From: Bacillota bacterium
GTDB lineage: Bacteria > Bacillota > SHA-98 > Ch115 > JABLXJ01
Length of the DNA: 64,000 nucleotides
Assembly: GCA_013178125.1 (NCBI GenBank)
Contig: JABLXJ010000004.1
Coordinates: 124,001 to 188,000 of the forward strand
Direction: 5' to 3'
Part shown: piece after piece, positions 32,598-45,799 of the stretch
How positions within the stretch are numbered: position 1 is the stretch's first letter
Layout of the letters: the number at the start of each line of letters is the position of its first letter
The notes under the pieces: model-generated
Databases searched by the model: none
What the model was told of the DNA's origin: nothing
What the model saw: only the letters and a program-made list of their open reading frames with translations
Made by a program: the position numbers and the translations under genes

Positions 32598-33269
32598 ATG
32601 CTGGGGGGTCTGTTAATGGTTGACATGTTAATTAAAGGCGGGCCGGTTATGATCCCGTTGCTCCTGTGCTCGGTGCTGGCTCTGGCGATTACCTTTGAAC
32701 GCATATATTATCTCTGGAGGACGAGGACGGACCCTGAGCGCGCCCTGCAGGCCGTCACCCTTGCCCTCGAGCATGGCAGGATAGGTGATGCCATCGCGGC
32801 TGTGGAAAAATTCCGGGGGCAGATCGGGAGCCTCATGTCCGCGGCATTGGTCAGTTACGGCAAGGAGCGTGATGAGATCGAGGCAGCCATGAGGGCTGCG
32901 GGTGAAAAAGAGGTCTACAAAATGGAGAAGAGGGTCTCAGTGCTCGATATGCTCGTTACCATCTCACCCCTCCTGGGCCTTCTGGGGACCGTGACGGGAA
33001 TTATAAAGAGCTTCAAGGTCCTCGCGACCTCCCCTCAGATATTGGATCCCGGTCAGCTCAGCGCCGGAATAGCCGAGGCCCTTATAACAACGGCGGCAGG
33101 CCTCATAATTGCCGTGCCTACGCTCGCCTTCCATACATATATCGTTGGCATTATCGACAGGCGAATCCTCGAGATGGACGAGTTCTCCAATGATTTGCTC
33201 GATATCCTGGCGTCCGAGGTGAAACGCGATGAGGTTCCATCGCAACTCCAAAAAGAAGCCTCGAATTGA
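32598..33269 (+). CDS. exbB: ExbB/TolQ/MotA-family proton channel protein
   Basis: This protein of 223 residues has three predicted membrane helices (about 14-34, 115-140, 155-180) and the conserved LLGLLGTVTGIIKSF segment of ExbB/TolQ. With ExbD it uses the proton gradient to energise a TonB-like partner. The ExbD gene overlaps it by 41 bases and TonB follows, so ExbB is preferred over MotA. ATG 32598 is the longest start; ATG 32616, with GGGGGG 8 bases before it, is also plausible. Confidence 0.88.
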   Translation: MLGGLLMVDMLIKGGPVMIPLLLCSVLALAITFERIYYLWRTRTDPERALQAVTLALEHGRIGDAIAAVEKFRGQIGSLMSAALVSYGKERDEIEAAMRAAGEKEVYKMEKRVSVLDMLVTISPLLGLLGTVTGIIKSFKVLATSPQILDPGQLSAGIAEALITTAAGLIIAVPTLAFHTYIVGIIDRRILEMDEFSNDLLDILASEVKRDEVPSQLQKEASN

Positions 33270-33633
33270 AATGGTGCCGATGGTCGATGTGATGACCTTC
33301 CTCATAGTGTTCTTTATTCTCTTCACGACCTTCCGGACGAGCCCCATGGGGCTCCAGGTCAAGCTGCCGGCGGCTGTGACAGCGACCAAGCAGGAGACAA
33401 CCAGGATCACGGTCACGATCGACGTAAGGGGCAACATATACTTCAACGATACCCGCACTACCATGGATGGCCTGGAGCAAAGGGTCAAGCGGCAGATTGC
33501 GCGGAATCGTAACAGCCTCGTCATCATAAAGGCTGACAGGGATGTGCGATATGCGAAACTGGTGGAAGTGATGGATGCGGTCAGGCGTGTTGGGGCTACG
33601 CGAGTCGCGCTCGCGGCGGAGAAACCCAGCTGA
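33229..33633 (+). CDS. exbD: ExbD/TolR-family biopolymer transport protein
   Basis: This protein of 134 residues has a short cytoplasmic start, one membrane helix containing the conserved proton-relay Asp (MVPMVDVMTFLIVFFI, near residue 22), and a periplasmic domain ending RRVGATRVALAAEKP, typical of ExbD. It overlaps exbB by 41 bases, showing tight coupling. Confidence 0.9.
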   Translation: MRFHRNSKKKPRIEMVPMVDVMTFLIVFFILFTTFRTSPMGLQVKLPAAVTATKQETTRITVTIDVRGNIYFNDTRTTMDGLEQRVKRQIARNRNSLVIIKADRDVRYAKLVEVMDAVRRVGATRVALAAEKPS

Positions 33634-33712
33634 CCGCCTGACCCCTATTAACCATATTGCCCGTATTGGCGGGTCAGCTGGCAAAAAGGCCTTTACAGGT
33701 TGGTGGGGTGGC

Positions 33713-34705
33713 ATGAGATTGAACATCGCAAGGTCGAAGGGGAGTTCTGAAGGGGACAGCCTTCCCGTGGCTATTCTGGTTTCCATCGCCGTTCACGCGC
33801 TTTTGATCTGGCTCATACCTGTCTGGGAGCCAAAACAGGTTGCGATTTACCCCCTGGAATTCGGGGAGATATCACAGACCTTTTCTGAGACCAGGCGCGG
33901 CAAGCCTGCAATCAAGCATGGAACGCCGGCTGCCCATCTCCAGGCCGGGCCCCAGGCCAGGGTAAGGGTGGTGGAGGCAAAGCCAAAAACGGGACCCACG
34001 GTCGACGTTGTTAAGACCCCCCCTGACGTTGTTAAGGCTTCCCCTATTGATAAGGTTCCTATCAAGGAACCCCAAGTCAAGGAGGCTTCAGTCAGGGAGA
34101 CCCGGGCAGAGGCCGTTGCAGCGGCAGGCGATGTTAACAGGAAAGCGGCTAAAACAGCTGTGCTCGAGGACAAAACCAGGGTGCTTACATCCGAACATGG
34201 CGATGAGAAGATTGCTGTAACCCAACCTCTCCCTGAGAAGCCGAGCGCGGATGTCAAAGGGGAGACCGGAGGGCATGCGTCACCGGGGGCTGGGGCCGCG
34301 GCCGTGGCCTCTGCGCCCGCAGTTCAACCTGGCGAGGGCCGGGGCGCGGCCAATAGTGAAGGCGGACAGGACCAGGGGGCTGCCGGCGTGGGCGGCGTTG
34401 ATTATGGGACCGGGGAATCCCTTGTCGTCCGGGGCGTGCCTCCTGTCTACCCAAAGAATGCTCAGAACGAGGGGATCGAGGGCAGCGTTGACTTGAAGGT
34501 GCGCGTTGGCCCGGATGGCAATGTGCAAGGTGTAGATATAGTTGGGTCATCAACTGATGAGAGGCTAAACGAGGTATCTAAGAGGACAGTTAGTTCGGCC
34601 TGGAACTTCCGCCCCATCGGGAAACCCTATAGCGTGAAGGTGAAGGTTTCGTTCTCCGGGGGGCAAGTCAAAGTGATATTTGGCGGGGTCTCTGTCGCAG
34701 GCTGA
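33713..34705 (+). CDS. TonB-like energy transducer
   Basis: This protein of about 330 residues has an N-terminal membrane helix (about 19-36; VSIAVHALLIWLIPVW, with the His in the helix seen in TonB), a long Lys/Val/Pro spacer (about 60-230), and a C-terminal TonB_C domain (about 245-330; VYPKNAQNEGIEGSVDLKV, SSAWNFRPI). TonB proteins pass force to outer-membrane receptors, which monoderm Bacillota lack. ATG 33713 is chosen because it starts just before the anchor; upstream in-frame codons overlap exbD. No TonB-dependent receptor is in the window. Confidence 0.83.
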   Translation: MRLNIARSKGSSEGDSLPVAILVSIAVHALLIWLIPVWEPKQVAIYPLEFGEISQTFSETRRGKPAIKHGTPAAHLQAGPQARVRVVEAKPKTGPTVDVVKTPPDVVKASPIDKVPIKEPQVKEASVRETRAEAVAAAGDVNRKAAKTAVLEDKTRVLTSEHGDEKIAVTQPLPEKPSADVKGETGGHASPGAGAAAVASAPAVQPGEGRGAANSEGGQDQGAAGVGGVDYGTGESLVVRGVPPVYPKNAQNEGIEGSVDLKVRVGPDGNVQGVDIVGSSTDERLNEVSKRTVSSAWNFRPIGKPYSVKVKVSFSGGQVKVIFGGVSVAG

Positions 34706-34811
34706 GCCGCCTCCCCGTTACTTCCCGCAGGGCGTCGCAGGTGTCGCAGTGTGCGCTAACCCGGGCCAGGCAGCCGCAGAATAAAGGGTTAACGCCAGTC
34801 GAGGGGTGATC

Positions 34812-36836
34812 ATGGTGGGGGTTTTTGCTGCTAGAGCGGGAAAAATCAGGATTTTGTTCCTGGGGTTGGTCGTTTCGGTCGCGATTTTCCTTTGTCAGTA
34901 TGTGGCTGTATCAGCCATATGTAGTGCAGCGCCCAACCTTGCCCTGGCAAACGACTATATCAAGATATTCGTGAACACGGATGAGGATGCTATGGGTCGC
35001 TTCGCTGTGGACACCACCGGAGGCGACCCTGAAAATCCCAAGGATGATAACAAGCCCCTGGTCTACGGGAGGCCGAAACCGTGGACCTCATATACCAGCG
35101 TGAAGATTGACGGCAGGACCTATTGCTTCGGGGGCCCCACGGAGAAGCGCGCGGGTGCTGGTGCCGACTATGGTGAGTGCCTCAAGCCCCCGCACATAGG
35201 CAGTGGCAACACGATAGCGGCGACGTGGGGGTTTGGCGACATCGAGGTGACACAACAACTCCGGCCCGTTCGCAGCATCACGAGTGGCCTCTTCGATACG
35301 GCTGAGATCAGGTATATCGTGGCCAACAACGGGACCTCCACCCATGATGTTGGATTGAGGATCGTCCTCGATACAATGCTCGGCGCGAATGACGGCGCCC
35401 CCATGAGGGTCGGGGAGGCAGCCGTGACCACCGACACGATGTACGAGGGCAATGGTGTGCCGGATTTTTGGCAGGCGTTCGATTCGCTCAGCAACCCTGA
35501 AGTCACATCTCAGGGGACCCTCCGGGGGGGCGGGGCCACGCCGCCCGACAGGGTTTTCCTTACCAACTGGGGCAGCCTTGCAGATGGGGTTTGGGATTTC
35601 GATTTCCAGCCCGGCAGGGATTTCACCCGCAAGGGCGAGTATGAACTGGATAGCGCGGCCGCCCTCTTCTGGGACCCAAGGCCGCTTGGCCCCGGCGAGG
35701 AGCGAGAGTATATCACGCTCTATGGGCTTGGGGCGATCTCCATCGCGAGGGGCACCCTTTCCATAGGTGTGACCTCCCCTGCTGAGGTCGTCAAGGGGAG
35801 GGGTAGATCAGCAGCATTTCCCGTCATCTGCTATATTGAAAACACGGGAGATGCAGAGGCATACAAGGTGAACGTATCCATTCAGCTCCCCGAGGGGCTG
35901 AACCTTGTCAGCGGCCAGTCGCGGGACCGGCAGCTCGGAAACCTGCCAGCTGGAGCGACAACCCAGGTGGTATGGAATGTTGAGCCCCAGGCACAACCCG
36001 GCACCGTCCTGACCTACATGGTGAGGGTGACGGCTGAGAATGTCGAGGATAACCAGGTCAAGCGGACGGTCAGGATACTGGCGCCTGCCAGGCTTTCGGC
36101 AAAGCTCTCGGGCCCCGGGGCGCTCGGGATAAGGGATGAGAGGTACCACCCCAGTCCGTTCAAGGTGACCGGGACGATCAAGAATGTCGGCGATGCGCCG
36201 GCATATGGCCTCAAGGCGACGATTCTGCCGGGCCAGGGACTGGCGACAGCGCTCCGTGAGAAACCCTCGAAGCTGCTCGGATCGCTGGAGCCCGGCGAAA
36301 CGTGTGATGTCGCCTGGCAGCTGGTTCCCGCAGGGGGAAAGGGGAATTTTAAGTATGATATGAAGGTCGAGTCCCCGAGCGCTGAGCCATCAACATCCAG
36401 CGGTAAAGTGAAGGTGCCCGAGCTCGAGCCCAAGGTTAGAGTCATCCTGGAATCCAGCGCCATCAAGGCGGGGGAGTTTTTCGCTGTCGACGTAATGGCG
36501 ACGAACATAGGAGGCTTCAAGAGTTCAGATATTAGCATCTCCTATGATCCCAGGGTTCTCGAGGCCGTAAGCGTGTCGAGGGGAACCGTATTTGTGGAGG
36601 ATGGTCGCCTTTTAAAATGGGATGAAGGGGTAATAGACAACTCGAAAGGGGTGATAAAGGGTATAAGGGGGGAGGTCGATTCGCCCCTTACTGCATGGGG
36701 CACGCTCTGCACGATCAACTTCAGGGCGAAGGCGCCGGGGGTGTCCCGTATTGAGTTACCGGGGCTTGAATTGAAGAATAGCCGCGGAGGGAAAATCGCC
36801 TTGACGATCGCTGATGGCAAGGTCAGTGTAAAATAA
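34812..36836 (+). CDS. Secreted multidomain protein with CARDB-like repeats and C-terminal cohesin-like domain
   Basis: This protein of about 674 residues has a signal peptide (hydrophobic 16-36), an unrecognised beta-rich N-terminal region (about 45-310), two Ig/CARDB-like modules (about 318-425 and 430-540; IENTGDAEAYKVNVSIQLPEG and IKNVGDAPAYGLKA are parallel), and a cohesin-like domain (about 545-674; AGEFFAVDVMATNIGG, SISYDPRVLEAV, INFRAKAPGVS). Cohesins bind dockerins; no dockerin is visible nearby. ATG 34812 follows GAGGGGTGATC. It lies between tonB and the SLH protein, suggesting a periplasmic or cell-surface role with them. It may be a scaffold or adhesin. Confidence 0.7.
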   Translation: MVGVFAARAGKIRILFLGLVVSVAIFLCQYVAVSAICSAAPNLALANDYIKIFVNTDEDAMGRFAVDTTGGDPENPKDDNKPLVYGRPKPWTSYTSVKIDGRTYCFGGPTEKRAGAGADYGECLKPPHIGSGNTIAATWGFGDIEVTQQLRPVRSITSGLFDTAEIRYIVANNGTSTHDVGLRIVLDTMLGANDGAPMRVGEAAVTTDTMYEGNGVPDFWQAFDSLSNPEVTSQGTLRGGGATPPDRVFLTNWGSLADGVWDFDFQPGRDFTRKGEYELDSAAALFWDPRPLGPGEEREYITLYGLGAISIARGTLSIGVTSPAEVVKGRGRSAAFPVICYIENTGDAEAYKVNVSIQLPEGLNLVSGQSRDRQLGNLPAGATTQVVWNVEPQAQPGTVLTYMVRVTAENVEDNQVKRTVRILAPARLSAKLSGPGALGIRDERYHPSPFKVTGTIKNVGDAPAYGLKATILPGQGLATALREKPSKLLGSLEPGETCDVAWQLVPAGGKGNFKYDMKVESPSAEPSTSSGKVKVPELEPKVRVILESSAIKAGEFFAVDVMATNIGGFKSSDISISYDPRVLEAVSVSRGTVFVEDGRLLKWDEGVIDNSKGVIKGIRGEVDSPLTAWGTLCTINFRAKAPGVSRIELPGLELKNSRGGKIALTIADGKVSVK

Positions 36837-36938
36837 GACGGTGCCAGTGTAGTAATGTAGAATTGTATGGCCAATCGTGTATAGCAGGAGTGTGCAAGTG
36901 TGAGAGGGTAATCTAGAGGCGAATATGGAGGGGGTAAC

Positions 36939-38486
36939 ATGCGCAAGCGTAAGCTGCCGGTGAATAGTCGCGCCGTTCTTACATCCACTCATTTGGGTTT
37001 ACTTGTCTCGATTCTCTTCCTGACCGGGGTTCTCCTGGCCTCCTTGAGCTTGAGCGTCTTTGCAGAGCAAATCAAGGATGTCTCGCCGGATCATTGGGCA
37101 TACCAGAGTGTAAAACTGCTCGTGGATAAGGGCTATATCTCACTTTACCAGGATGGCACCTTCCAGGGGAATAAGCCCGTGGACAGGTATTCGCTCGCCG
37201 CTATCGTAGCCAAGATCTTGAATGATATAGCGTCGGGGAAGGTCGCGGCATCGACGGAGGACGTCCAGGTCCTGCGGAAGCTCGCGAACGAATTCAGGGA
37301 GGAGCTCGTAAGCCTTACAGCCGAAACGCAAAACCTCGGGAGCAAGTTGAGCGCCAGTGAGAAGGCGATCGCTGTGGTCCGCGAGGATGCTGCCAAGGCG
37401 ATTTACGCGAACCAGAAGACCCAGGCAGACGTTCAAAAGACACAGATGGATGTCCAGAAGACGCAGGCGGATGTCCAGAAACTACAGGCTGCGCTTCAGA
37501 ATACGCAGGCTGATGTCGCGAAGGCCCAGGATGATATCCAGGGGAACCGGGCTGAAATCCAAAAGGTGCAGGCGGAGGTGCAGGGCATCCTGGCAGACAT
37601 CGCGAAGAGCGCGGAGAGGCTGGGTGCTGTCGGAGAGAGAGTGGCCGGCCTCGAGGATAAGGCATCTGCGCTCGACGCGCGGCTCGCTGCCGGGGATGCT
37701 GAGCGCAGCAAACTGAAGGAGATGGTCGATGATCTCGCGGCGACCCTCGCCAGGGCGGGTCAGAACCTCGATGAACTGGGGACCAAGCTCGGCGCGTCGG
37801 ATGAGGCAAGGTCGACTCTTGCTGAGAAATTATCGGCTACGGAGGCTCGCCTCGCCGAGGCTGACAAGAAGCTCGAGGATCGGGTTGGAGGCGCGGAGGA
37901 GGCCATCTCCAGGATAAGCGACGAGGTTGCCGGGCTCGAGTCGGGCCTGTCAGCCGCAAGCAAGGAAATTGCCGGTGCAAAGGACGAGCTTGCAGCGACC
38001 AGGCAGGATCTGGCGCGCCTCTCTCAGGATTTTGGGGCGGCCCGGGAGGAGCTCGGGAGCAGCATAGACTCACAGGGGAAAGACATCGCCGCCGCCAGGG
38101 AGAAGCTCGAGGCGCTCGAGGCTGAGGTCAAGAGCCTGGAGCCGCGGATAACTTCGAAGCTTGCGCCCAGAATCGATGGCATTGATGAGAGGCTCACAGA
38201 TCTCGAGGCAAGGACCTCTGCTGTTGAGGGTGAGGTTGGAAGCATCAAGGCATCAGTGAAGGGCCTTGAGACCAGGATTGCAGGTGTAGAGCAGGCGGTC
38301 GCCTCGGAGCGCGTATCCAGGAGCTCGGCGAGTAGCGCGCTCGAGGCCAGGCTGGACCAGCTTTCTGCTGATTTCGACCAGTACAGGGCCAGCACGGATA
38401 AGGAGCTCAAGGGGTTGAAGCAAACCAATAGCATGTTGACGGTGGCGCTGGTTCTGGTGGGGCTGCTGGGGCTCGCGGGCAAGTAG
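36939..38486 (+). CDS. SLH-domain coiled-coil protein with C-terminal anchor (Omp-alpha-like)
   Basis: This protein of 515 residues has a signal peptide (about 15-42), one SLH domain (about 45-95; DVSPDHWAYQSVKLLVDKGYIS, split by DGTFQGNKPVDRYSLA), a coiled coil of almost 400 residues (about 105-490) and a hydrophobic C-terminal segment (about 496-512). At residues 165-225 the coil shows near-exact heptads (QKTQADV type). This layout matches Thermotoga Omp-alpha, a rod that spans the periplasm with the SLH head on the wall and the tail in the outer membrane. GGAGGGGG precedes the ATG. Confidence 0.82.
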   Translation: MRKRKLPVNSRAVLTSTHLGLLVSILFLTGVLLASLSLSVFAEQIKDVSPDHWAYQSVKLLVDKGYISLYQDGTFQGNKPVDRYSLAAIVAKILNDIASGKVAASTEDVQVLRKLANEFREELVSLTAETQNLGSKLSASEKAIAVVREDAAKAIYANQKTQADVQKTQMDVQKTQADVQKLQAALQNTQADVAKAQDDIQGNRAEIQKVQAEVQGILADIAKSAERLGAVGERVAGLEDKASALDARLAAGDAERSKLKEMVDDLAATLARAGQNLDELGTKLGASDEARSTLAEKLSATEARLAEADKKLEDRVGGAEEAISRISDEVAGLESGLSAASKEIAGAKDELAATRQDLARLSQDFGAAREELGSSIDSQGKDIAAAREKLEALEAEVKSLEPRITSKLAPRIDGIDERLTDLEARTSAVEGEVGSIKASVKGLETRIAGVEQAVASERVSRSSASSALEARLDQLSADFDQYRASTDKELKGLKQTNSMLTVALVLVGLLGLAGK

Positions 38487-39643: not shown

Positions 39644-40798
39644 ATGGATTCGACCCATAAAGTTGGCCCGGTCGATCCCATTACCGGCATTATTGAAACC
39701 GAAACTGAAAAGGTTGATCTGAAAGGCCTCCTTCCCGGTGAACTGGGAGACTTCGTTGCGAAGCTCGGCGAGGCCAGGTATCGAGGGCTACAAATCTTTC
39801 AATGGATTCACCAAAAACAAGCGAACTCCTTCGACGAAATGACCAACTTACCTAAAGAACTTCGCAACCGCCTGGCAGAGGTGGCGTCCCTTACAAACCT
39901 CTCCGAGCTTGCGAGGCAGGTCTCGGAGGATGGCACCATCAAATTCCTCTTCGGCCTGGCTGATGGCAATGCAGTTGAGGCTGTGCGCATGGAATACGAG
40001 CATGGTCTTGCGGCATGCGTCTCGACTCAGGTTGGATGCAGGATGGGGTGCGCCTTCTGCGCCACAGGCTATGGCGGATTTGAGAGGGACCTCAGGACGG
40101 GGGAGATCGTCGACCAGGTTTTGCAGATCCAGAGGGATTTGAGGGTTCGGGTGGGTGCGGCGCGGGATGGCGAGAAGCAGGAGAGCGCGCGGGGACATGG
40201 GGAACGGAGGGTTGGCAATGTCGTCTTGATGGGATCGGGCGAGCCCCTGGATAACTACGACGCCTCGGTGAAGTTTATGCGCATACTAAATGACCCGGAT
40301 GGGTTGGGCATAAGCTACAGGAGGATCACGCTTTCCACCTGCGGGCTCGTGCCCGGGATCAGGAGGCTCGCCGGCGAGGGCCTGTCCATAACCCTGTCAG
40401 TATCCCTGCACGCTACGAGCGATGAGCTCCGGGATGAGCTCGTGCCGATCAACAGGCGGTTTTGTATAGCTGAGCTGATGCAGGCGTGCAGGGAGTATGC
40501 GGAGTCGACCGGGCGAAGGGTGACGTTCGAATATATCCTCATAAAGGGGGTGAATGACGGCGATGCTGACGCCGTAGCGCTTGCCGGCCTGGTTGCGGGC
40601 TTTCCCTCGCACGTCAACCTCATCCCCCTGAACCCCGTTGATTCTGCGGAATTTGAGAGGCCCGAGCCTTTCAGAGTGCGGCGGTTTCAAAGGATTCTCG
40701 AGGATCATGGCGTCCAGGCAACCATTCGTAGAGAGCTCGGGAGCGACATAGATGCTGCCTGCGGCCAGCTGCGAAGCCGTTCCTTATGGAGGGGTTGA
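39644..40798 (+). CDS. rlmN: 23S rRNA (adenine-2503-C2) methyltransferase
   Basis: Radical-SAM methyltransferase of 384 residues acting on A2503 of 23S rRNA and A37 of some tRNAs. The cluster motif is GCRMGCAFC (C132, C136, C139); the GEPLDNYD segment and resolving Cys373 (DIDAACGQL) are present. The N-terminal extension of about 24 residues before VDLKGLLPGEL has no better start. In B. subtilis rlmN directly precedes prpC-prkC; here two FHA genes intervene. Its stop is one base before the next start. Confidence 0.93.
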   Translation: MDSTHKVGPVDPITGIIETETEKVDLKGLLPGELGDFVAKLGEARYRGLQIFQWIHQKQANSFDEMTNLPKELRNRLAEVASLTNLSELARQVSEDGTIKFLFGLADGNAVEAVRMEYEHGLAACVSTQVGCRMGCAFCATGYGGFERDLRTGEIVDQVLQIQRDLRVRVGAARDGEKQESARGHGERRVGNVVLMGSGEPLDNYDASVKFMRILNDPDGLGISYRRITLSTCGLVPGIRRLAGEGLSITLSVSLHATSDELRDELVPINRRFCIAELMQACREYAESTGRRVTFEYILIKGVNDGDADAVALAGLVAGFPSHVNLIPLNPVDSAEFERPEPFRVRRFQRILEDHGVQATIRRELGSDIDAACGQLRSRSLWRG

Positions 40799-40799
40799 A

Positions 40800-41654
40800 A
40801 TGGGACCCTTTGTGAGATTTGAACGACTGGTGGAGTGCATTGTCGAGGGCCTCTTCCGGCGGGCCCGGGTTGCCGGGACGCATCCGGTTGAGATCGCGAG
40901 GCATATCATCCGCAAGATGGAGGACGAGCGCCGGATAAGCGTCTCCAGAGTGTATGTCCCGAACGAGTATATCGTTCATCTGAACCCCGGCGACCTCGCA
41001 AGGGTCGAGCCCCTTGGCTACACCCTGTCGTCCGAGCTCTCGGGTCATGTGAGAGATCGCGCTGGGCGTTATGGTTACGCCTTTATCGGTCCGGTCGAGG
41101 TCAGGTTCGTCGGCGACCCGGACATGGATGTTGGTGCCATTATGGTAGATGGCAGGTTCGTCGAGGGCGACCTGGAGGTGACAGATCGCTCATCCCTTCG
41201 CACCGTAATCGCGATCGCCGGCAGCGAGGTGAGCAGGCTTCCAACCGGCGAGGACATCAGCGAAGATACCAGCATCAACCCGAGCCCCGGGGAGGGCGCG
41301 CAGACCCAGGTCTTCAGCGGGATGAGCTCGAGAGGCGGTTCCGGTGAGGAAGGGAGGAAGCCCCATGCCGCGCGCCTGGTGGTGGAACGGGGCGACCGGC
41401 TGGGGGAGGAGTTTGGGCTTACGGAGGGGGTTACAATCATTGGGCGCAGGAAGTCGAGCGATGTGGTTCTCGAGGATCCCAGCACATCGAGGGACCACGC
41501 TGAGGTGCGGTACGAGAGGGATGGCTTCGTCCTTGTCGACTGCGGCAGCACCAACGGGACCTTTGTGAACGGGAAGAGGATCGAGCGCCATGTTTTGCAG
41601 GATGGCGACCTGATCCGGGTGGGCAAGACCCTTTTCCGCTTCAGGGTGGTGTGA
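40800..41654 (+). CDS. fhaA: FhaA-like protein (DUF3662 + FHA)
   Basis: This protein of 284 residues has an N-terminal DUF3662/FhaA domain (about 1-125; FERLVECIVEGLFRRA, KMEDERRISVSRVYVPNEY), a low-complexity linker and a C-terminal FHA domain (about 195-284; IIGRRKSSDVVL, TSRDHAEV, GSTNGTFVNGKRI). FHA domains bind phosphothreonine; actinobacterial FhaA binds phosphorylated MviN/MurJ and PknB. ATG 40800 has GGAGGGGTTG before it. Position ahead of fhaB-prpC-rodA-pbp-prkC matches the mycobacterial locus. Confidence 0.87.
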   Translation: MGPFVRFERLVECIVEGLFRRARVAGTHPVEIARHIIRKMEDERRISVSRVYVPNEYIVHLNPGDLARVEPLGYTLSSELSGHVRDRAGRYGYAFIGPVEVRFVGDPDMDVGAIMVDGRFVEGDLEVTDRSSLRTVIAIAGSEVSRLPTGEDISEDTSINPSPGEGAQTQVFSGMSSRGGSGEEGRKPHAARLVVERGDRLGEEFGLTEGVTIIGRRKSSDVVLEDPSTSRDHAEVRYERDGFVLVDCGSTNGTFVNGKRIERHVLQDGDLIRVGKTLFRFRVV

Positions 41655-41657
41655 AAA

Positions 41658-42197
41658 GTGGCTCTGGTTTTCCTGGCGTTGAAATTCGCGCTCATAGCCC
41701 TCATCTATGTCTTTCTTTACCAGATTATCAGGGCGATACAGCTGGATATGGGATATGGATTGAGGTCGGGGCGGCCCGGCATAGAAGTAGAGGTTCCCGG
41801 CGAGGAAGAAGGTGGAGGCACCCGGGGCTTCCCTGCCGTGATGGAGGGCGGCGATGAGGGCAGGCCGCCAGGCGGAGCGGAGCCAGGCCCGGGGCTCTAC
41901 GTTGTGGGCGAGCACGGGGAGTTCCCGCCAGGCGCTTTTTTTGCGATCGACCCTTTGACTGACATCGTAGTGTCCCTCGGGCGCGGGCCGGGCAATATTA
42001 TATCGATCCCGGACCCTTATGTTTCCGCAGTCCATGCAAGGATCGTGAGGAGGGGGGAGGGCTACTGGCTGGAGGACCTTGGGAGCAGGAATGGGACTTT
42101 TGTGAACGGGAAGAGGGTATCCCGCGCTGTGCGCCTTCGTCCTGGCGATACTATCACAGTCGGCGATACCACCTTTCAATTCAGGGGGGTGAGGTAG
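41658..42197 (+). CDS. fhaB: FhaB/FipA-like membrane-anchored FHA protein
   Basis: This protein of 179 residues has an N-terminal membrane helix (about 3-25), a linker and a C-terminal FHA domain (about 105-179; SLGRGPGNIISI, SAVHARIV, GSRNGTFVNGKRV). In mycobacteria the homologue FipA is a PknA/PknB substrate that binds FtsZ/FtsQ. It starts at GTG three bases after the fhaA stop and abuts the phosphatase gene, so the proteins are probably made together. Confidence 0.87.
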   Translation: MALVFLALKFALIALIYVFLYQIIRAIQLDMGYGLRSGRPGIEVEVPGEEEGGGTRGFPAVMEGGDEGRPPGGAEPGPGLYVVGEHGEFPPGAFFAIDPLTDIVVSLGRGPGNIISIPDPYVSAVHARIVRRGEGYWLEDLGSRNGTFVNGKRVSRAVRLRPGDTITVGDTTFQFRGVR

Positions 42198-42908
42198 ATG
42201 CAGGCTGCGGCGCTTACCGACGTTGGCATGGTCAGAGAGCAAAACGAAGACGCATTTTACCTCGGTGAGAACGTTTTCGCCGTTGCGGATGGCATGGGGG
42301 GGCATTACGCCGGCGAGGTGGCGAGCGGGATAGCCATCAGGATGCTCAGGGAAACTAACCCTAATGGCTCATCGAATCCTGAGAATCCTGAGAGCTGGCT
42401 CCGGTCCCTCATCAGCGACATAAACGCGGAGATATTCAGGCAGGCGAGCATCCACCCGGGTTATATAGGGATGGGGACGACCCTGACGGTGCTCCTCATG
42501 GGCGATAACTGGGCTTATATAGGCCATGTCGGGGATAGCCGGGCCTATCTCCTGAGGGATGGCATGATCCGCCAGCTGACGGATGATCATTCGGTCGTTG
42601 GGGAGCTTTTGAGAAGAGGGGTGCTGACCAGAGAGGAGGCCAGATTTCACCCCCAGAGGAATATAATCACCAGGGCGCTTGGCACCTTTCCACACATTGA
42701 TATCGATATACTAAGCCTGGATACCAGGCCGGGAGACAGGCTCCTTCTCTGCACGGATGGCCTCACCGGCGCCATAAGCGACGAGGAGCTGGCAGATATC
42801 CTGCTCGCGGCCCACGACCCTGAGCAGGCCTGTAAAGCCCTGATTGAGGCGGCCAACGAGGGGGGCGGGCATGACAACACAACGGTGGTTGTAGTATACT
42901 GTTCATGA
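42198..42908 (+). CDS. prpC: PP2C-type Ser/Thr phosphatase (PrpC/Stp/PstP)
   Basis: Metal-dependent phosphatase of 236 residues opposing the PASTA kinase. The PP2C motifs TDVGMVREQNEDAF, FAVADGMGGH, GDSRAYLLRDG, LLLCTDGLTG and GGGHDNTTVVVV are all present. No membrane helix, unlike mycobacterial PstP, so it is the shorter Bacillus type. It overlaps the RodA gene by 4 bases (ATGA). Confidence 0.94.
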   Translation: MQAAALTDVGMVREQNEDAFYLGENVFAVADGMGGHYAGEVASGIAIRMLRETNPNGSSNPENPESWLRSLISDINAEIFRQASIHPGYIGMGTTLTVLLMGDNWAYIGHVGDSRAYLLRDGMIRQLTDDHSVVGELLRRGVLTREEARFHPQRNIITRALGTFPHIDIDILSLDTRPGDRLLLCTDGLTGAISDEELADILLAAHDPEQACKALIEAANEGGGHDNTTVVVVYCS

Positions 42909-44197
42909 GTATGCTGTCCATGAGTGGGGGTGAGCGATGCGTGGGGGTCAGGCTCGTTGGGTTCGCCCTCTTCCCGGTCATCCTGGGCGGGGCCACAGTA
43001 GAACTCGTCTCGCGCTCCTGGGAGGGTCAGGTTCCCATGAGTTGGGCGCTCTGGCCCCTGTATGCACTCTGCTCCCTTGCCGCATATTACCTGGGGGGAG
43101 GACATAAGGGCCGGCTGGAGCCGGTAATCTTTCCGGTGGTGGTCTTCTTGACGGGGTTTGGCATAATTGAAACATACAGGCTGCGGCCGGACCTGGCCTG
43201 GCGGCAGTTCTCATGGGTCATGATAGGGCTCGCCCTCCTGGTCGCGCTGGGCATCTTCCTGAGGGATTACGGCGACCTCCAGCGGTATGAATACCTGTGG
43301 GGTGTTTTGAGCGTGGTCCTTCTAGCGCTCACGATCGTCTTCGGCAAGTCAGCGGGCGGGGCGAGGGCCTGGCTCGGTATGGGAAGATTCCGTTTTGAGC
43401 CCTCCGAGTTTGTAAAGATATTCATCATAATCTTCCTGGCCTCTTACTTGAACGATGCAGGAAAGGCGTTCATGATCCCGACGCGCCGCCTGTGGAGGAT
43501 ATGGGCACCGGAGCTTGCCTACGTTGGCCCGCTCATCGTGATGTGGGGCCTGTCCTTTTCGCTCCTGATTCTACAGAAGGATCTCGGAGCCGCGTTTCTT
43601 TTCTTCGGGGTTTTCCTGTCGATGCTCTACGTTGCGAGCGGGCGGCCGTCGTATGTTATTTTTGGGCTCATGCTATTGATTCTCGGTGGTGTGGTGAGCT
43701 ATCATTTATTTGACCACGTCCGGGTCCGGATGGACATGTGGATCAACCCGTGGGCTGATGTGGACGGCAGGGGTTACCAGATAGTCCAGGCCCTTTTCGC
43801 CCTGGGATCCGGCGGGATTTTCGGGTCGGGCCTAGGCCTGGGACATCCCTCGGTGATTCCAGCCGTGGAGACGGACTTCGTCTTTGCGTCGCTGTGTGAG
43901 GAGCTTGGGTTTGCAGCTGGGGCGGCGATAATCGCCCTCTATCTTGTCCTGACTTACAGGGGGCTCAGGGTGGCTCTGAGAGCTCGAGATGAGTTCGGGA
44001 GCTTGCTTGCGACCGGTCTCGCCTCGCTGCTGGGGCTCCAGGCGCTTACAATAATAGGCGGCGTCCTGAGGCTCGTCCCTCTCACCGGCGTCACGATGCC
44101 ATTCTTGAGCTACGGGGGGAGCTCCCTCATCTCGAGCTTCCTTGCAGTTGGTTTATTATCGAATGTAGCCCGGCATGGCAGGGGGGCGGATGGATAG
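42905..44197 (+). CDS. rodA: SEDS-family glycosyltransferase (RodA/FtsW/SpoVE)
   Basis: Polytopic membrane protein of 430 residues with about ten helices. Conserved SEDS features include GGARAWLGMGRFRFEPSEFVK, the WINPWADVDGRGYQIVQ loop and the final PFLSYGGSSLISSF. SEDS proteins polymerise lipid II with a cognate class B PBP, which is encoded next. RodA is preferred because of the actinobacterial-type neighbourhood; FtsW or SpoVE function cannot be excluded. ATG overlaps the prpC stop. Confidence 0.9.
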   Translation: MSMLSMSGGERCVGVRLVGFALFPVILGGATVELVSRSWEGQVPMSWALWPLYALCSLAAYYLGGGHKGRLEPVIFPVVVFLTGFGIIETYRLRPDLAWRQFSWVMIGLALLVALGIFLRDYGDLQRYEYLWGVLSVVLLALTIVFGKSAGGARAWLGMGRFRFEPSEFVKIFIIIFLASYLNDAGKAFMIPTRRLWRIWAPELAYVGPLIVMWGLSFSLLILQKDLGAAFLFFGVFLSMLYVASGRPSYVIFGLMLLILGGVVSYHLFDHVRVRMDMWINPWADVDGRGYQIVQALFALGSGGIFGSGLGLGHPSVIPAVETDFVFASLCEELGFAAGAAIIALYLVLTYRGLRVALRARDEFGSLLATGLASLLGLQALTIIGGVLRLVPLTGVTMPFLSYGGSSLISSFLAVGLLSNVARHGRGADG

Positions 44198-44203
44198 AGA
44201 TGC

Positions 44204-45799
44204 GTGATGGCGATGCGTGACGCGGGCGCCGGGGTCCAGGCGCGGATTCGACGCCTTTTGAATATGTTCATGTGGGCGTTTATTGGCCTTGCCATCGGGC
44301 TCGCGTATATCGTCGGGTGGCGCGGCAATTACCTGGCGATGCACGCGCGAAACCCCCGTCAGGTCGCGATCGAGAAGTCAATTGAGCGGGGAGGAATATA
44401 TGCCGCGAATGGCGAGGTCCTCGCCGGGAATAAGCTAGCTGGGAGGCCGCCAGGGCGCACATTAAGGGTCTATTTCGGCCCCAGATCCCTGGTGCATATT
44501 GTGGGCTACAGCCACGATAGATATGGAAAGACCGGTATTGAACTGGCGCTCAACAGCCAGCTGCTGGGGCTCCCGCCCGGGTTTTTGGGTGTGCCGGTCG
44601 TGGGCCTGGTCCCCGGTCCGGGCTCCAGGCAACCGCAGCCGCGAGGGGCAGGGGTGCGAAGACAGGGTGAGAAGCCGCGGGGGAATGACATCATCCTGAC
44701 GATAGATCCGGAGCTGCAGGCCGCAGCCGAGGCTGCTCTCGGGCGCAGGAATGGTGCGGTTGTTGTCCTCGACCCCGCCACCGGGGCGGTGCTTGCCTCC
44801 GTGAGCTATCCTGCTTTTGATGCAAATAGGCTCGATGCCGTCTGGCCCGATATAACTCAGGACCCTTCGAGCCCGTTCATAAACCGCGCCACATCAGGGC
44901 TTTACCCGCCGGGCTCGGTCTTCAAGATCATAGTTGCAAGCGCGGCGATTGAGACGGGGCTTGTCGGACCAGAGGATATGTTTGTGTGCAACGGGAGCAT
45001 AGATGTAAATGGCCGGAGGATATCGTGCCCGGGCGGCAGGGCCCACGGCAGGGTTAACCTGGCGTCAGCCCTCGCCCTCTCGTGCAACGTCGCATTTATA
45101 CAGGTCGCCCGGAAAATGGGGGGCAGGAGGCTCTCTGATTTCGCGCGGCGGTTTGGTTTCAATAGAGAGATACCGTTTGATCTTCATGTAAACGAAGGTA
45201 GATTTCCGACCTTTCGCGGTGAGGGCAGCACCGGTGATCCCGGTGGTGCAGGTGCCAGGAACGGTGCAGACGCCAGGGACGGCGCAGGCGACAATGAAAA
45301 CCTGCTCGCGGAGGCCGCCATAGGCCAGGGCCCCGTGCTTGTCACGCCGCTGCACATGGCCATGATCGCGGCGGCTATAGCAAATCGCGGGGTGATGATG
45401 CGGCCGTACGTCGTTTCCCTGGTGAGGAGGGGCGGGAGCAGCGAGACGCTCTGGCGATATGTGCCGGGCAGGGTATCGCGCGCCGTTTCGATCAACACGG
45501 CGGCGAGGATGAGGGACTTGCTGGTCGACGCTGTGGAATCAGGCACAGGGTGGCGCTCAGCCATCGAGGGCATATCCGTCGCCGGCAAGACGGGCACGGC
45601 CCAGAACCCCGAGGGCGCCCCGCACGCATGGTTTGTCGGCTTTGCGCCGGCCGAGAAGCCCAGGTTTGTGATAAGCGTCATCGTGGAGAATGGCGGCCCG
45701 GGCGGATCTGTGGCGGCACCGGTCGCCAGGCGAGTCCTGGAGTTTGCTCTCCACCGGGAGGAGGGAGTTTTCCATGGTCGGCGAAATGCTGGGGAATAG
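44204..45799 (+). CDS. pbpA: Class B penicillin-binding protein (PbpA-like transpeptidase)
   Basis: This protein of about 531 residues has a membrane helix (about 20-42), a short pedestal region and a transpeptidase domain. The nucleophile S238 and K241 (GSVFK), S293-C-N295 and K462-T-G are all intact, so it should crosslink peptidoglycan. A Gly/Ala/Asp insertion lies near 345-365. GTG 44204 and ATG 44207 or 44213 are all possible starts. It pairs with the preceding SEDS protein, and its end overlaps the kinase gene by 26 bases. Confidence 0.92.
   Translation: MMAMRDAGAGVQARIRRLLNMFMWAFIGLAIGLAYIVGWRGNYLAMHARNPRQVAIEKSIERGGIYAANGEVLAGNKLAGRPPGRTLRVYFGPRSLVHIVGYSHDRYGKTGIELALNSQLLGLPPGFLGVPVVGLVPGPGSRQPQPRGAGVRRQGEKPRGNDIILTIDPELQAAAEAALGRRNGAVVVLDPATGAVLASVSYPAFDANRLDAVWPDITQDPSSPFINRATSGLYPPGSVFKIIVASAAIETGLVGPEDMFVCNGSIDVNGRRISCPGGRAHGRVNLASALALSCNVAFIQVARKMGGRRLSDFARRFGFNREIPFDLHVNEGRFPTFRGEGSTGDPGGAGARNGADARDGAGDNENLLAEAAIGQGPVLVTPLHMAMIAAAIANRGVMMRPYVVSLVRRGGSSETLWRYVPGRVSRAVSINTAARMRDLLVDAVESGTGWRSAIEGISVAGKTGTAQNPEGAPHAWFVGFAPAEKPRFVISVIVENGGPGGSVAAPVARRVLEFALHREEGVFHGRRNAGE

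Follow-up and report, generated by a model that had tools for sequence, protein, structure and literature searches.

What does a TonB-type motor do in a bacterium whose genome yields no TonB-dependent receptor, and what joins it to a secreted protein and a surface rod? This question is raised by a five-gene locus in a 64,000-nucleotide stretch of a Bacillota genome (contig JABLXJ010000004.1), which we call the window. According to a 2022 survey, atypical diderms, the diderm Firmicutes included, are devoid of pal and tolB, and diderm Firmicutes keep other Tol components (PMC8871954). A 2025 survey finds Tol-Pal in Gracilicutes only and, among the diderm Firmicutes, Ton in Negativicutes only (PMC12204202). 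Moreover, a 2016 study of LPS outer membranes reported SLH proteins in the outer-membrane locus of Halanaerobiales and is silent on ExbB or a Ton system (PMC5007114). Here, we describe an operon that looks like an undescribed counterpart of Tol-Pal as known from E. coli.

Results

The five genes recur as open reading frames at the coordinates first annotated, all on the forward strand, between positions 32598 and 38486 of the window. They comprise exbB, exbD, tonB, a gene with the working name sec, which codes for a secreted protein of the Ig/cohesin type, and a gene for an SLH/coiled-coil protein with a hydrophobic C-terminus, hereafter the rod. ExbB (32598..33269, 223 aa) belongs to the MotA/TolQ/ExbB proton-channel family (Pfam MotA_ExbB, 1.6e-30) and has an intact TM3 motif, GIAEALITTAAGL. 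ExbD (33229..33633, 134 aa) is a member of the ExbD/TolR family (Pfam ExbD, 1.7e-33), the transmembrane Asp of which is kept in 74 of 74 relatives. The tonB reading frame (33575..34705) spans 376 aa (Pfam TonB_C, 1.7e-15), and its true start is probably an internal Met at 33713. The protein consists of an N-terminal TM helix with an S-x3-H motor box, a Pro/Ala-rich linker, and the TonB C-terminal domain. This motor box is found in 71 of 74 relatives, and the window TonB is the sole TonB_C match in its own genome. Within the window, exbB overlaps exbD and exbD overlaps tonB, and about 100 bases separate tonB from sec and sec from the rod gene. Across 63 complete loci the median intergenic gaps are short (-17, 17, 11, and 7 bases), which indicates a spacing as in one operon.

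The TM3 of ExbB differs in a Halanaerobium-type clade (L104, L108, L109, L118-L123, and L125-L127), where GIAAALIST stands against GIAEALITT. This loss of the usual glutamate may reflect an altered ion pathway in these halophilic bacteria. On the other hand, the NCBIfam TolQ and TolR models outscore the ExbB and ExbD models on the motor proteins of the operon. We dropped these scores as evidence of Tol-likeness because the alignment that matched TolQ throughout included a receptor-linked ExbB.

Homologues of sec were detected in 27 of 61 relative genomes, with identities of 37-81%. The order exbB-exbD-tonB-sec-slh is kept in 18 further loci from relatives, in four of which BLAST matched no reading frame in the tonB position to the TonB of the window. 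In an independent scan of GTDB genomes, which returned 244 loci, the five-gene order was present in all of the best 80 of these 244, apart from genes lost at contig ends. The GTDB loci span Limnochordia MAGs, Halanaerobiales, and unclassified Bacillota; the named Halanaerobiales carrying the operon are Halanaerobium, Halanaerobacter, Orenia, Natroniella, Fuchsiella, Halonatronum, and Frackibacter. The recurrence of this order in relatives and GTDB loci indicates that the gene set is not due to chance. In addition, the five genes have diverged in step, with correlated pairwise divergences (r 0.67-0.87, 63 complete loci). The comparison across relatives that the first-pass annotation had suggested hence finds the genes adjacent in every uncut locus, those of Limnochordia and Halanaerobiales included.

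The usual motifs in TonB, ExbB, and ExbD would suit an ordinary Ton system whose receptor genes lie elsewhere in the genome and have diverged beyond the reach of the plug model. Detectable receptors in 30 of the 84 genomes that carry sec would also be in line with this explanation. However, the plug domain of TonB-dependent receptors (PF07715) was not detected in the window genome and is absent from the other 54 sec-positive genomes, and the same model finds receptors readily in other genomes of the phylum, some of them from the same class. Moreover, receptor-bearing genomes with sec often have a second exbB-exbD-tonB set beside the receptors, without sec or rod (for instance L141, L151-L157, and L167-L169); in one genome (G040), a receptor-linked TonB has no ExbBD nearby. 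In a maximum-likelihood tree, the 72 operon ExbB rows (the window and 71 others) split from 17 receptor-linked ExbB at a branch supported by 93/98, and this split was recovered in 92% of bootstrap trees. The tree contains several long branches and its detailed placements are unsure. An ordinary Ton system would also leave the linkage to sec and the rod unexplained. Undetected receptors are thus an improbable explanation, and we rejected a receptor-serving role on the basis of the negative plug search in the window genome and the separate receptor-linked Ton sets of its relatives. The operon does not represent a nutrient Ton system.

The distribution of sec follows that of the outer membrane assembly protein BamA. 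We sampled 398 Bacillota genomes with a completeness of at least 90%, counting full-length sec only, and found sec in 84 and BamA in 99. Both genes occur together in 83 genomes and neither in 298, which means that 298 of the 314 genomes without sec also lack BamA. BamA without sec was observed in 16 genomes, and the sole genome with sec and no BamA (G013) is a 91% complete assembly. The sec-positive genomes are spread over about 33 families. In turn, the 16 BamA-only genomes fall into four families, probably Negativicutes, with TonB-dependent receptors in 15 of these genomes. The co-occurrence is highly significant (Fisher p 6e-68), but the genomes are related and this value overstates their independence. 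The operon is present in nearly all BamA-positive Bacillota sampled outside those four families.

The window genome itself has genes for BamA and TamB, two OmpH-like genes, an LpxD-like gene, and a weakly FadL-like gene together in one cluster, which upholds the diderm envelope initially deduced from the window. A monoderm with stray genes is ruled out by the presence of BamA and TamB in this cluster. Two findings would have refuted the first-pass annotation, a lack of outer-membrane genes and non-adjacency of the five genes in relatives, and neither was made. The Pfam model of LptD had no match in the window genome. However, this negative result says little because the model also misses the diderm Terrabacteria controls and, among all controls, matches only E. 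coli and Caulobacter. Within the outer-membrane cluster (L029, G000:C19:1-16000), a 692-aa protein with a SpoIVB-type (S55) peptidase domain and a phosphodiester glycosidase are also encoded next to TamB and BamA.

The sec gene (34806..36836) codes for a 676-aa multidomain protein with an N-terminal signal helix (AlphaFold2 mean pLDDT 90.5). In the predicted structure, this helix precedes a 285-residue N-terminal domain, a pair of Ig-like domains, and a domain of the cohesin type. Pfam matches to CARDB (5.9e-7) and Cohesin (9.7e-8) bear out the earlier reading of a CARDB- and cohesin-like protein with a signal peptide, encoded after exbB, exbD, and tonB. The first Ig-like domain (35790..36086) is of the NEW3/NPCBM-associated type (NPCBM_assoc/NEW3, PF10633, 2.7e-8) and was found in 50 of 56 relatives. 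The second (36087..36419) rests on the AlphaFold2 model, with no Pfam match here. The cohesin-type C-terminal domain (36420..36833) was found in 42 of 56 relatives and is matched by profile by type II cohesins in the PDB (3.9e-15). A lipobox-like motif occurs in only 5 of 79 relatives, which rules out sec as a lipoprotein, and no conserved TonB-box-like peptide is evident at the variable N-terminus of the mature protein.

The N-terminal domain (residues 44-328, 34935..35789) is the most conserved part of sec, with 57 near-invariant residues versus 9, 4, and 1 in the other domains. Searches of Pfam, NCBIfam, and the PDB returned no relative of this domain by sequence. Foldseek searches with full-length sec returned only generic Ig strings, integrins, and similar proteins, and the N-domain had to be searched alone. 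This search retrieved GH94 and GH116 enzymes, aldose epimerases, and the periplasmic domain P1 of YidC, with query TM-scores mostly of 0.4-0.56 and a best E of about 1e-7. As judged from the AlphaFold2 model (pLDDT 87.3, pTM 0.87), these matches establish the fold class as a galactose-mutarotase-like supersandwich. Domains of this class often bind sugars, but not always, YidC being an exception. In genomes that lack BamA, the N-domain was also found in giant surface proteins that carry RHS, SLH, or dockerin domains, and hence it is not specific to an outer membrane. The domain, whose family has no name, heads these proteins in L147:4954-11172 (2072 aa), L148:4112-11854 (2580 aa), and L149:4127-9817 (1896 aa).

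The composition of sec also brings in energised transport of a glycan or polymer, in which TonB would drive an outer-membrane channel of unknown type, sec would bind the sugar, and the rod would be a mere spacer. The N-domain shares its fold with carbohydrate-active enzymes and epimerases, proteins that handle glycans often contain NEW3 and cohesin domains, and TonB systems usually power transport. However, the conserved unit contains no outer-membrane channel gene in either the relative or the GTDB loci. Moreover, its near-universality in BamA-positive genomes outside the four families suits envelope housekeeping better than the uptake of a single substrate. We regard transport as unlikely.

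The last gene of the operon (36939..38486) codes for the rod, with a signal peptide, one SLH domain (37071-37187; Pfam SLH, 4e-8), a long coiled coil, also matched as such, and a C-terminal hydrophobic segment (about 38436-38477). This is a single segment of 13-16 residues after the coiled coil. Of 72 complete rods, 71 have this segment, and the lone exception is a masked sequence; in control proteins, the count is 0-1 of 74-79. The Omp-alpha-like layout of SLH domain, coiled coil, and C-terminal anchor that had been read from the window is therefore well supported. The coiled coil is of variable length, and whole rods range from 220 to 1447 aa (median 374).

We also examined the OmpA-domain and SLH proteins of the window genome and found no Pal-type or OmpM-type protein among them. 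Hence, with regard to the gene products that the first-pass annotation had named for a genome search, BamA was found, and TonB-dependent receptors and OmpM-type proteins were not. The three OmpA-domain proteins are all MotB-like. There are two SLH proteins, the rod included; in the other one, three SLH domains were found but nothing that suggests a barrel. The rod is, for these reasons, the only candidate outer-membrane tether found among the SLH and OmpA types in this genome. Against this reading, its hydrophobic segment could in principle sit in the inner membrane. A second SLH protein is encoded upstream of exbB in some loci (L071:4959-5651, L044:9072-9764, and L045:3811-4401).

The flanks of the operon are variable. 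About 30 Limnochordia-type loci, exemplified by L061, have dacF, spoIIAB, sigF, and genes for a PHP and a GNAT protein upstream, with the operon directly 3' of dacF-spoIIAB-sigF and 5' of spoVAD and fliM. This location could point to a motor that serves surface motility, secretion, or the remodelling of the spore envelope, comparable to AglRQS, and motors of the ExbBD family have such roles elsewhere (PMC12204202). However, the sporulation neighbourhood is confined to this one group of loci and is lacking in the Halanaerobiales-type loci and in the window, and on these grounds we discarded a sporulation-specific function. The operon also occurs in Halanaerobium, whose members are mostly non-sporulating. 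Altogether, as judged from the gene neighbourhoods and the distribution of the operon, we consider a motility, secretion, or spore motor very unlikely.

Near the window operon, dpaAB had been annotated; dpaA is confirmed, and the next gene encodes a flavoprotein, as expected for dpaB. A DNA-pattern search for spoVS gave no match, which does not exclude the presence of the gene. Downstream (39644-45799), the window contains rlmN and genes for FHA proteins, a PP2C-like phosphatase, FtsW/RodA, and a penicillin-binding protein. This stretch adjoins the operon in close relatives only (about 10-11 loci). In 21 Halanaerobiales-type loci (e.g., L060:11136-11735), a cell-wall hydrolase (Hydrolase_2, SleB/CwlJ type) is encoded downstream on the same strand. 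No division gene was found among the conserved neighbours of the operon.

Discussion

The first-pass annotation offered two functions for this locus, the handling of an extracellular polymer and the coupling of force to outer-membrane tethering. The latter fits our results better and the former fits less, although the mechanism is in both cases inferred. In this sense, we propose that the operon encodes a Tol-Pal-like, proton-driven force transducer that acts on the tethering between wall and outer membrane and does not serve nutrient receptors, a proposal whose chances of being right or wrong we judge to be equal. Its starting points are established by the comparisons above, namely the gene content, order, and conservation of the operon, the co-occurrence with BamA, the independence from receptors, the separate lineage of the motor, and the fold class of sec.

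From these data, a mechanism can be inferred without interaction, localisation, or phenotype data. ExbB-ExbD would be the proton-driven motor in the inner membrane, and TonB would be the transducer across the periplasm, acting through its C-terminal domain on periplasmic sec. The sugar-binding-type and cohesin-type domains of sec may link TonB to a glycan of the wall or envelope and to the rod, whose C-terminal hydrophobic helix would be inserted in the outer membrane and whose SLH domain would hold the wall. A pull of TonB on sec, on the rod, or on both may then release or relocate the tethers between wall and outer membrane, and the outer membrane would thereby follow the wall through growth and division. 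The cell location of these proteins, the contacts between TonB and sec and between sec and the rod, the binding of glycan, and the remodelling of tethers are all inferences. Points against this reading are that sec shows no conserved TonB-box-like peptide, that its N-domain is not confined to genomes with BamA, and that no division gene accompanies the operon. More tentatively, and with belief falling a little below doubt, we suggest that diderm Bacillota outside Negativicutes have independently assembled an equivalent of Tol-Pal, in which a receptor-less ExbBD-TonB is the motor, a supersandwich adaptor stands for TolB, and an SLH rod stands for Pal.

The operon supplies concrete candidates for the missing pal and tolB partners in BamA-positive Bacillota outside the four BamA-only families. 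It opens to direct experiment the question of how an outer membrane is maintained and constricted in these bacteria without Tol-Pal, and it bears on the loss of the outer membrane in monoderm Firmicutes. Our results also suggest that a TonB-type transducer may be devoted to something besides receptors. If our proposal is true, an energised system for envelope constriction exists in Terrabacteria thought to be without one.

No described system was known to the first-pass annotation. This holds for the five-gene unit, of which we found no description in the literature (subscription papers were outside the search), but not for its motor. In the 2009 genome paper of Halothermothrix orenii, ExbB, ExbD, and TonB are reported together, receptors are absent, and a different function is suggested (PMC2626281). 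As in our loci, this is a chromosomal cluster of a member of the Halanaerobiales without a receptor, and it is probably the same operon. Unlike the present account, the passages on these genes mention neither sec, the SLH rod, nor a wider distribution.

Several known systems share parts with this operon. The cohesin fold of sec, supported by Pfam and PDB profile matches, is that of the cellulosomal cohesin proteins. The rod resembles Omp-alpha of Thermotoga maritima, described as the toga's anchor and spacer, whose 316-residue coil keeps the toga some 50 nm away from the cell body (PMC3387000), in combining an SLH domain with a long coiled-coil rod and a hydrophobic C-terminus; unlike Omp-alpha, it adjoins a Ton-type motor and sec, and its length ranges widely. 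With OmpM of Negativicutes it shares one SLH domain per chain, a coiled-coil stalk, and wall binding, inferred in the case of the rod (PMC10628300), but it shows no beta-barrel and ends in a single hydrophobic segment. The operon shares the three motor and transducer families of the Ton system, key motifs included, but has no linked receptor, and receptors are also lacking altogether in the window genome and in most sec-positive genomes. Finally, the operon departs from Tol-Pal (TolQ-TolR-TolA-TolB-Pal) in that sec is not TolB, having no beta-propeller and no TolB match in Pfam, in that the rod combines SLH and coiled coil where Pal has an OmpA domain and a lipid anchor, and in that ybgC and cpoB are missing from the conserved unit. 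Like Tol-Pal, however, it comprises a TolQR/ExbBD-type motor, a TolA/TonB-type transducer, a secreted protein, and a candidate outer-membrane tether of the wall-binding kind, all of them encoded in a single operon, and it is independent of receptors.
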